Of a stretch of DNA of 64,000 nucleotides, positions 20,820-53,195 are shown one piece after another. Position numbers and translations under genes: made by a program. Each line of letters starts with the position of its first letter. Positions within the stretch are counted from its first letter, which is position 1. The notes under the pieces are model-generated. The model was given only the letters and a program-made list of their open reading frames with translations. It was not told where the DNA came from and searched no databases. Source of the DNA: Halopseudomonas sabulinigri (GTDB taxonomy: Bacteria > Pseudomonadota > Gammaproteobacteria > Pseudomonadales > Pseudomonadaceae); NCBI GenBank assembly GCA_011053055.1, contig DRHT01000049.1, forward strand, positions 1 through 64,000, read 5' to 3'.

Positions 20820-21035
20820 GGGTTTTTGCTGAATTATTTTTGCTGTGCTTGATAACTGCTCAGCAAACTCAGAACTCCCTAAACGCATCTGACATGGTTT
20901 TGACGCCAATCAGATGCTCCGCCGATGACTGTGTATCGACGGGTTGAGGAATAACTTTAGGGTTGTCTGTGATTGTAAAACCGGGACTAAAACCGGCAGA
21001 CGGATGAAAGCGCATGCACCTGCCGCCACGCCGCC

Positions 21036-21160
21036 CTGTGGAGGGCCGGGTTCCATCCCGGCCAGCGGTGTCTTGCTAACACGCTGCTGCTGACTCGTGC
21101 GCATTACTAATTAAGGTGTAGCCGGATAAACCGCTGGTCGAGATGGAACTCGACCCTCCA
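21036..21160. repeat. Inverted REP pair (family A)
   Basis: Two palindromes in opposite orientation: GGCCGGG-TTCCAT-CCCGGCC at 21044-21063 and GGTCGAG-ATGGAA-CTCGACC at 21136-21155, each flanked by CCGCTG/CAGCGG on one side and GGAGGG/CCCTCC on the other. The same double unit recurs at 22121-22243, and related units at 26119-26245. It resembles the paired REP (BIME) arrangement of gammaproteobacteria. Confidence 0.8.
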
Positions 21161-22100: not shown

Positions 22101-22120
22101 CCTAAAGCGATTGGCGCGTT

Positions 22121-22259
22121 GTGGAAGGCCGGGTTCCATCCCGGCCAGCGTTGCATGGCTAGTACACCGCTGCTGGCTTATGCGCATCACTAAGAAAGGC
22201 GTGGCTGGATAGCCCGCTGGTCGAGATGGAACTCCACCTTCCCAGAGGAAACCCTCTGG
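22121..22259. repeat. Inverted REP pair (family A) plus hairpin
   Basis: GGCCGGG-TTCCAT-CCCGGCC at 22127-22146 and GGTCGAG-ATGGAA-CTCCACC at 22219-22238 repeat the arrangement at 21036-21160, followed by a CCAGAGG-AAAC-CCTCTGG hairpin at 22242-22259 that could terminate the toxin-antitoxin message. The rest of the gap up to 22416 shows only the GAGGTG ribosome binding site of the next gene. Confidence 0.75.
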
Positions 22260-51514: not shown

Positions 51515-52321
51515 ATGCGATTGCGTTTTCTACTGTGTGTGCCGGTCATTGCCCTGGCCGGATGCCAAAGCGTGCAAACCACTCAAGGCGGCAACGTTGG
51601 AGTGGACCGTACCCAGTACATGATGAGCGGCCTGTCGAGCGAAGAAGTCAACCAAATGGCGGCTCAGTCTTACGACGAGATTCTGGCGGAAGCCAAGAAG
51701 GCTGGCGTGCTCAATACCAATGCTGCGACCGTCCGCCGTTTGCGCAAAATCGCCGACGATCTGACCGCGCAAGCTACTTATTTTCGGCCGGATGCAGCTC
51801 AGTGGGATTGGCAAGTCAACCTGATCAAGGATGACCAGCTCAACGCCAGTTGCGCGCCCGGCGGTAAAATCCTGTTCTACTCCGGGATCATCGATAAACT
51901 CAACTTAACCGATGACGAAATTGCCCAAATAATGGGCCACGAGATTGCTCACGCCCTACGCGAGCATGGCCGCGAAGCCATCTCCCGTGCGTACGCCACT
52001 CAGATGGGCACTCAATTGGCTGGCGCACTACTGGGCTTGGGCTCTGGCAGCCAGCAGGCAGCGGATATGGCTGTTCAGTATGGCCTAACGCTGCCCAACA
52101 GCCGCTCCAACGAGAGCGAAGCCGACCTGATTGGCCTCGAACTCGCTGCCCGGGCAGGCTACAACCCGCAGGCCGCCGTCAGCCTGTGGCAGAAAATGTC
52201 AGGCGCCTCGCAGGGCGAGCCACCACCGTTCATGAGCACTCACCCATCATCCTCAGGCCGTATTGAAGCTCTGCGTGCCGCCGCACCGCGCGTGCAGGCG
52301 TTGTACGAAGCCAATAAGTAA
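51515..52321 (+). CDS. M48 family lipoprotein metalloprotease
   Basis: Lipoprotein of 268 residues; lipobox IALAGC with Cys17. The zinc site is HEIAH (H142, E143, H146) with the downstream ESEAD motif supplying the third ligand, as in E. coli LoiP/YcaL. Other marks are DDQLNASCAPGGKILFYSGIIDKLNLTDDEIAQIMGHEIAHALREHGRE and the STHPSSSGRI loop. These proteases degrade damaged or misassembled outer-membrane proteins. The ATG at 51515 (MRLRFLLCVPVIALAGC) gives a normal signal peptide; the ORF extends in frame to 51476. An intrinsic terminator follows the stop. Confidence 0.9.
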   Translation: MRLRFLLCVPVIALAGCQSVQTTQGGNVGVDRTQYMMSGLSSEEVNQMAAQSYDEILAEAKKAGVLNTNAATVRRLRKIADDLTAQATYFRPDAAQWDWQVNLIKDDQLNASCAPGGKILFYSGIIDKLNLTDDEIAQIMGHEIAHALREHGREAISRAYATQMGTQLAGALLGLGSGSQQAADMAVQYGLTLPNSRSNESEADLIGLELAARAGYNPQAAVSLWQKMSGASQGEPPPFMSTHPSSSGRIEALRAAAPRVQALYEANK

Positions 52322-52328
52322 GCCACAG

Positions 52329-52359
52329 GCCGGGCAGCTGAAAAGCAGCCCGGCTTTTC
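52329..52359 (+). terminator. Intrinsic terminator after the M48 gene
   Basis: GCCGGGC and GCCCGGC pair across a 12-base loop (itself partly paired), starting 7 bases after the stop and followed by TTTTC. Confidence 0.75.
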
Positions 52360-52467
52360 ACTTTACTCTTTCTGCTGGGCCGTCCCGTTCATCCGTTGTG
52401 CCGGAAATGTCTGGCTGTCTGCGAATAAATCATTAGAATGTGCGCCGCTTAAGGTCATTCTGACCGC

Positions 52468-52505
52468 ATGGGTTCCCTAACCCCATTTATAAACAACGGC
52501 GGAGG
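52468..52505 (+). promoter_or_regulatory. preQ1-I riboswitch-like element upstream of yhhQ
   Basis: A five-base-pair stem ATGGG/CCCAT (52468-52472 with 52482-52486) encloses TTCCCTAAC and is followed by an A-rich single strand TTATAAACAAC and then GG. This is the preQ1-I H-type pseudoknot plan: small stem, loop ending TAAC before CCC, A-rich tail whose GG pairs with loop CC. It is very like the Thermoanaerobacter preQ1 aptamer (CTGGG ... TAACCCCAG, A-rich tail, AAGG). A GGTCA-TTC-TGACC hairpin precedes it (52453-52465). The regulated gene, a preQ0/queuosine precursor transporter, fits the ligand. Confidence 0.75.
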
Positions 52506-52538
52506 CAGCGGCTTCCGGATCCGTAAAAAGGACACAAA

Positions 52539-53195
52539 ATGACGACCCTCTCTTCCGCACGCCGGCAAAAAGCCTTGGCGTTGCTGATTGCTTTTCATAT
52601 TGCCATCATCATTGCCAGCAACTACCTGGTACAACTGCCTATCACCTTGTTTGGTTACCATACGACGTGGGGCGCTTTCAGCTTTCCTTTCATTTTTCTC
52701 GCCACCGATCTAACTGTGCGCTTGCTCGGCAAAAGCGCCGCCCGCAACGTCATTGCCAAGGTGATGCTGCCAGCGTTGCTGGTGTCCTATGCGGTGTCGG
52801 TGGTATTCCAGGAAGGCAGCTATCGCGGCATTGAATCACTGCTGTCATTCAACGACTTCGTACTGCGTATTTCACTGGCGAGCTTTGTCGCTTACGTGAT
52901 CGGTCAGTTACTGGATATTCAGGTATTCGACCGCCTGCGTCAGTCGAAAAAGTGGTGGATTGCACCCAGCCTGTCGACAGTACTGGGCAACCTGGCCGAC
53001 ACCTTTGCCTTTTTCTCGGTGGCCTTCTGGCGCAGTAGCAACGAGTTCATGGCGACTCATTGGGTCGAGATCGCTACCGTCGATTACGCCATCAAGCTGG
53101 GCATCAGTCTGTTGCTATTCTTGCCGCTGTATGGCGTGTTACTCAAAGCGCTACTGCGGCGTTTTTCTGGACCGGATACCGCCACCAGCCATTGA
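52539..53195 (+). CDS. yhhQ: Queuosine precursor transporter YhhQ
   Basis: Membrane protein of 218 residues with six predicted helices, of the COG1738/YhhQ (vut_1) family that imports 7-cyano-7-deazaguanine and relatives for queuosine tRNA modification. Family patterns are GAFSFPFIFLATDLTVRLLGKSAARNVI, FVAYVIGQLLDIQVFDRLRQSKKWWIAPSLSTVLGNLADTFAFFSVAFW and DYAIKLGISLLLFLPLYGVL. AAGGA precedes the ATG by 8 bases. Its leader carries a preQ1-I type riboswitch. It converges with chrA, the two being separated by a hairpin. Confidence 0.92.
   Translation: MTTLSSARRQKALALLIAFHIAIIIASNYLVQLPITLFGYHTTWGAFSFPFIFLATDLTVRLLGKSAARNVIAKVMLPALLVSYAVSVVFQEGSYRGIESLLSFNDFVLRISLASFVAYVIGQLLDIQVFDRLRQSKKWWIAPSLSTVLGNLADTFAFFSVAFWRSSNEFMATHWVEIATVDYAIKLGISLLLFLPLYGVLLKALLRRFSGPDTATSH

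Follow-up and report, generated by a model that had tools for sequence, protein, structure and literature searches.

The yhhQ leader of Halopseudomonas sabulinigri very probably contains a type III preQ1-I riboswitch (52468-52532, + strand) in which the Shine–Dalgarno (SD) sequence serves as the P2 partner, and its linker carries a 29-nt hairpin. Coordinates refer to the window, i.e. the whole 64,000-nt stretch of DNA that was analysed. Read 5′ to 3′, the leader comprises a short hairpin (P0; 52453-52465), the P1 stem-loop (52468-52486), a 9-nt A-rich linker, the 29-nt hairpin (P3; 52496-52524), AAAAAGGA and the yhhQ start codon. The type III subtype itself is known, and the linker hairpin is a structural variant of a known riboswitch. 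Type III was reportedly defined in a 2014 paper, and such linkers may appear there. In the literature searched, which includes the passages on linkers, insertions and hairpins of PMC10622847 and PMC11625349 and has the 2014 defining paper outside its scope, no description of hairpins in type III linkers was found.

The downstream gene, yhhQ (52539-53195, + strand), was recognised from its open reading frame and a family match. Its ATG lies at 52539, and its product is a queuosine-precursor transporter of 218 aa, which belongs to the 7-cyano-7-deazaguanine/7-aminomethyl-7-deazaguanine (preQ0/preQ1) transporters (NF008406, E 1.6e-104). The nearest named relatives of the yhhQ locus are Pseudomonas neustonica (93%) and Halopseudomonas species (84-85%). 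The host also encodes QueF, QueC and Tgt, covering preQ1 synthesis and use, and YhhQ is therefore a salvage route that is expected to be turned down at high preQ1. Type III riboswitches bind preQ1 one to one and prefer it over preQ0. A search of 52322-52560 found no consensus promoter, and the sole terminator-like site in this interval (52339-52360) lies 3′ of the upstream gene, consistent with yhhQ being expressed from its own promoter. That upstream gene encodes an M48-metalloprotease-like protein (a LoiP match below the curated cut-off).

Type III aptamers are described as having UU after the P1 5′ strand, an AC motif, a pyrimidine loop and an AAAAAGG tail whose AAGG doubles as the SD (PMC10622847, PMC11625349), and the E. 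coli yhhQ leader is a member with a solved preQ1-bound structure (PMC10622847). In the window, P1 is formed by ATGGG (52468-52472) and CCCAT (52482-52486) around the loop TTCCCTAAC (52473-52481), or AUGGG/CCCAU around UUCCCUAAC as RNA. It contains the three conserved G-C pairs below the pocket (GGG/CCC), the UU (U52473-U52474) and the AC (A52480-C52481), and seven of its nine loop letters are pyrimidines, in agreement with the short pyrimidine-rich loop of type III. C52481, 5′ of the P1 3′ strand, belongs to the AC motif (PMC11625349) and is the expected specificity base. The tail TTATAAACAAC (52487-52497) is followed by GG (52498-52499), and its first nine nucleotides form the unpaired part of the L3 linker (52487-52495, from sequence and fold), compared with 8 nt in wild-type E. 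coli (PMC10622847). From P1 to the poly(A) the linker measures 38 nt, 29 of them folded in P3, and a variable linker is a feature of type III. The poly(A) and SD, AAAAAGGA (52525-52532), provide the four to five A followed by AAGG that is characteristic of type III and could pair with the loop; the AAGGA of yhhQ lies at 52528-52532, and 7 nt separate its GG from the ATG. In E. coli, P2 consists of U11-A28, C10-G29 and C9-G30 (PMC10622847). The window letters at these places are 52478-52529, 52477-52530 and 52476-52531, so that 52476-52478 corresponds to the anti-SD (C9, C10 and U11 in E. coli numbering) and A52529-G52531 is its expected partner.

Compared with the E. coli type III leader, the window shares the 15-nt core bar one loop letter, the UU and AC motifs, the poly(A) followed by AAGG as SD, and the downstream gene family. 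It differs in the 29-nt L3 hairpin, in having A rather than C at loop position 12, and in the outer P1 pairs, which are A-U and U-A in the window but U-A and U-A in E. coli. The initial annotation had placed the aptamer on the plan of Tte (class I type II), with which it does share an AC motif, an A-rich tail and, in its predicted fold, an H-type pseudoknot of similar size. However, the UU after the P1 5′ strand, the pyrimidine loop and the AAAAAGG tail fit the type III description instead. In Tte, the loop purines G8, A10 and G11 are present and two SD nucleotides are buried (PMC10622847), whereas the window loop has C, C and U at those positions and a full AAGG. The letters and positions given in that first reading for the stem, loop, tail, GG, GGAGG/CTTCC and AAGGA were all correct, and its assignments of riboswitch class, gene and queuosine pathway are supported. 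Just 5′ of the aptamer, P0 (GGUCA-UUC-UGACC) was identified by fold prediction. Some pairing in this region was predicted in 29 of 30 folded genus yhhQ leaders, with differing sequences (none in L007), and the predicted hairpin may protect the 5′ end or aid folding of the aptamer.

We examined the conservation of the core across relatives. A yhhQ match was present in 32 of 37 genus genomes (the other five had none), and the core GGGTTCCCTNNCCCC lay 5′ of yhhQ in all 32 (30 loci plus L140 and L141), as it did in named Halomonas, Shewanella, Photobacterium and E. coli. Loci L004-L105 were brought in via a protein match or as the E. coli control, and 94 of these 102 (seven genomes being present twice) had the core; in all 94, a run of five to seven A followed by GG also lay no more than 85 nt 3′ of it. 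The eight lacking the exact core, which were excluded from counts, are four Legionella-type loci (L098-L101), L104 (a partial gene match) and three with altered cores (L059, L079 and L084). Conservation in orthologous yhhQ leaders was one half of the refutation check set by the first reading, and this half was passed. In the relatives, the inner P1 pairs (GGG/CCC) and the loop letters were set by the search pattern, so the invariance of the anti-SD letters is by construction, and the two outer P1 pairs were free. These outer pairs covary over 16 distinct cores, with 93.8% of all P1 cells paired (5 of 80 unpaired) and 15 double-change cells, a level reached in 0 of 500 shuffles, while the number of double-change pairs was equalled by 351 of 500 shuffles.

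A covariance model of the 19-nt P1 hairpin, built from 14 distinct cores with the ATGGG type excluded, matched 52468-52486 at 29.2 bits (E 1.9e-4 in the window; E-values are rough owing to a short calibration). The next two matches in the window scored 15.8 bits (E 0.24). Across the 3.8-Mb host genome, where 150 of 1336 first-look candidates were scored, no match besides 52468-52486 (E 0.0115) was reported at E 10 or below. Fold energy by itself does not set the leader apart (z -0.22), and the case for a riboswitch therefore rests on conservation and covariation. The Rfam model proposed as a check by the initial annotation, RF00522, gave no match at 52300-52640 up to E 10 and none at the gathering score (39 bits), and genome-wide it produced weak matches elsewhere only (14.5-16.3 bits; 150 of 287 candidates scored). 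Since RF00522 also gave no match to the E. coli type III yhhQ leader, used as a control, this failure is a limit of the model and is not diagnostic. With both type III leaders that were scanned undetected by RF00522, annotation from Rfam alone can miss such switches.

P3 (ACGG CGGAGGC AGCG GCUUCCG GAU CCGU; 52496-52524, + strand) is supported by its fold (p 0.018 against 500 shuffles) and by compensatory changes in sister leaders. Within it, GGAGG (52501-52505) lies opposite CTTCC (52512-52516); this pairing, seen in the first reading, is real, but what was taken there for an unusual expression platform is a linker insertion between a linker of ordinary length and the poly(A)-SD. In the genus, the linker is 34-38 nt long and bears the hairpin in 9 of 32 genomes, and it measures 4-8 nt in the remaining 23. 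Each of the seven distinct hairpin linkers from Halopseudomonas beats its dinucleotide shuffles in folding (p 0.012-0.036) and leaves 8-12 nt unpaired. A MAFFT alignment of all nine hairpin leaders misplaced the 6- and 7-pair stems, and covariation was therefore counted on an alignment restricted to the second subgroup, five of whose six leaders were used; L010 was omitted because its stretch equals that of L009, and the three from the window's own subgroup fell outside the count. Across these five, every one of the 18 pairs in P1, P2 and P3 was kept (100% of cells paired). Three P3 pairs were changed on both sides, compared with none in six slid controls; shuffles reached the number of double-change cells in 2 of 500 and that of double-change pairs in 63 of 500, with only three different upper stems among the five leaders. 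The lower P3 stem (ACG/CGU) was invariant in the five leaders, and this could reflect a sequence function. The P2 pairs were likewise invariant and their loop side was fixed by the pattern, so P2 has no covariation of its own. An origin of P3 from a dispersed repeat was not supported, as a genome search allowing up to 3 mismatches gave one copy.

Long linkers recur outside the genus. At the level of the order, the core was followed after 4-34 nt by AAAAGG in 42 of 390 genomes, and after 28-58 nt in four of 390, namely the window, two genomes of family f36 and G169. The G169 match (L106), also counted among the 42, has no yhhQ and was dropped as a chance occurrence. In f36, 54 of 221 genomes had 17-47 nt before AAAAGG, and yhhQ lay downstream in all 30 loci fetched from this search. 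Since the YhhQ tree places the f36 rows among those named Halomonas and Vreelandella, we term the family Halomonas-like. Class-wide, a spacing of 20-50 nt occurred in the window's genome alone (1 of 369, the denominator being all genomes and not core-bearing ones). Every one of the 26 distinct linkers of at least 28 nt folds below -3 kcal/mol, and 12 of the 26 have p<0.05 against shuffles; leaving aside the seven from Halopseudomonas, these values are 19 of 19 and 5 of 19, in a test that is weak because short GC-rich sequences fold well when shuffled and because related rows are not independent. Among shorter linkers, p<0.05 against shuffles was reached by 1 of 22 distinct linkers of 14-19 nt and by 1 of 6 of 20-27 nt. 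When the label 'linker of at least 24 nt' is placed on a tree of 87 YhhQ proteins made by a quick method, it requires at least six changes, four of them forced by well-supported branches. The label records linker length and not a hairpin and, as rows were partly picked for their long linkers, the figure is a tally of changes and says nothing about frequency. Together, these results suggest that structured long linkers are tolerated and were acquired more than once, with the SD kept as the sensor. They also provide naturally occurring variants with which to examine how fast and how strongly such a switch responds as its linker varies in length and structure; to date, this question has been addressed with deletions in E. 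coli (PMC10622847). In one Halomonas-like linker (G400, locus L107, core at 1501), three small hairpins in a row are visible by eye, and the last two are near-identical units (AAAACGCC..TTCGGC and AAAACGCCC.TTCGGC), which suggests linker growth by tandem duplication. The minimum-energy fold of this linker pairs those hairpins otherwise and is no better than shuffles (p 0.116).

Our favoured explanation is a type III translational switch that lowers YhhQ when preQ1 is plentiful, with P3 acting as a kinetic or spacing element. By comparison with the E. coli structure, P1 and the pyrimidine loop would form and preQ1 would sit on P1 against C52481; the poly(A) would lie along P1, and A52529-G52530-G52531 would pair with U52478-C52477-C52476. 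Binding of preQ1 is predicted to stabilise this pseudoknot and bury the SD, hiding the ribosome site and lowering YhhQ synthesis. Direct SD occlusion is the likeliest mode of control. The first reading had instead considered a second hairpin or a terminator, but the SD is itself the expected P2 partner and the scan of 52322-52560 gave no terminator-like site between the aptamer and the ATG. A terminator or detached platform was rejected, as the only terminator-like site in that interval lies behind the upstream gene. P3 would be an insertion into a tolerant L3 linker and, since about 9 nt of the linker stay unpaired once the hairpin has folded, nearly as many as in E. coli (8 nt), the SD could still reach the loop. 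The hairpin likely holds the SD near the loop, tunes the kinetics of pseudoknot closure and locks away a decoy CGG, a role proposed by analogy with helix P4 of class II preQ1 riboswitches (RF01054), the removal of which barely affects binding yet matters for binding kinetics (PMC11625349). Like P3, P4 is a hairpin away from the ligand, but class II has a different aptamer and is limited to Bacillota, making this an analogy only. We hold the explanation as a whole with only moderate confidence, because the proposed role of the hairpin overlaps with a reading of P3 as filler and because no more than the 5 of 19 long linkers outside the genus beat shuffles.

On that reading, the riboswitch is a genuine type III switch with the SD as P2 partner, and P3 is neutral, tolerated since the linker is unconstrained. 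Both the length and the sequence of the linker are described as variable, and trimming one to three nt from it in E. coli raised affinity 1.7- to 4.2-fold (PMC10622847). Linkers of 2-48 nt occur among the loci compared, and 14 of the 19 distinct long linkers from outside the genus fail against shuffles at p<0.05. Yet the P3 helix is kept by compensatory changes in the sister leaders, none of the 26 long linkers lacks a fold below -3 kcal/mol, and all seven of Halopseudomonas beat their shuffles (the rows being related), and we consider neutrality rather unlikely, although it is the most serious of the alternatives. A different proposal, in line with the initial annotation, takes the proximal GG (52498-52499) as the P2 partner, so that the aptamer is complete before P3 and P3 relays the signal to a separate SD. 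It draws on the proximal tail, which is A-rich and ends in ACGG in all nine hairpin-bearing genomes, and on the invariance of the CGG-containing lower stem in the five leaders, but conservation of these G can be explained by pairing inside P3. The letters at this site are ACGG, in place of the AAGG given for type III, and U11-A28 therefore cannot form (PMC10622847); furthermore, all nine genomes still have the distal AAAAAGG, the leader fold contains no anti-SD helix and no terminator precedes the ATG. We regard this relay as quite improbable, and the GG that matters is most likely that of the SD (52530-52531).

The proximal ACGG might also serve as a decoy. In the ligand-free state, the lower P3 stem would open and ACGG would pair with the loop as a decoy P2 unable to hold preQ1, leaving the SD free; preQ1 would then select the SD pairing and P3 would close over the decoy. 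Folding of three sequences put the lower stem at about 1-3 kcal/mol, and such an exchange is therefore energetically possible, although we think it improbable. If true, a three-state preQ1-I switch would have evolved through one hairpin insertion. Finally, the absence of an RF00522 match here could be read as a chance resemblance with no riboswitch at all, but the E. coli leader escapes that model as well and, given conservation and the outer-P1 covariation, chance is barely credible.

Elsewhere in the window, a 128-nt direct repeat is present in two copies (21032-21159 and 22115-22242; 81% identical) around a two-gene unit. One enclosed gene encodes a nucleotidyltransferase substrate-binding protein (PF08780), with a HepT-like match that falls below the cut-off, and the other a nucleotidyltransferase of Pol-beta type (PF18765). 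Judged from these domains, the unit has the make-up of a putative HEPN-MNT toxin–antitoxin pair, and the direct repeat may mark the boundary of a cassette.
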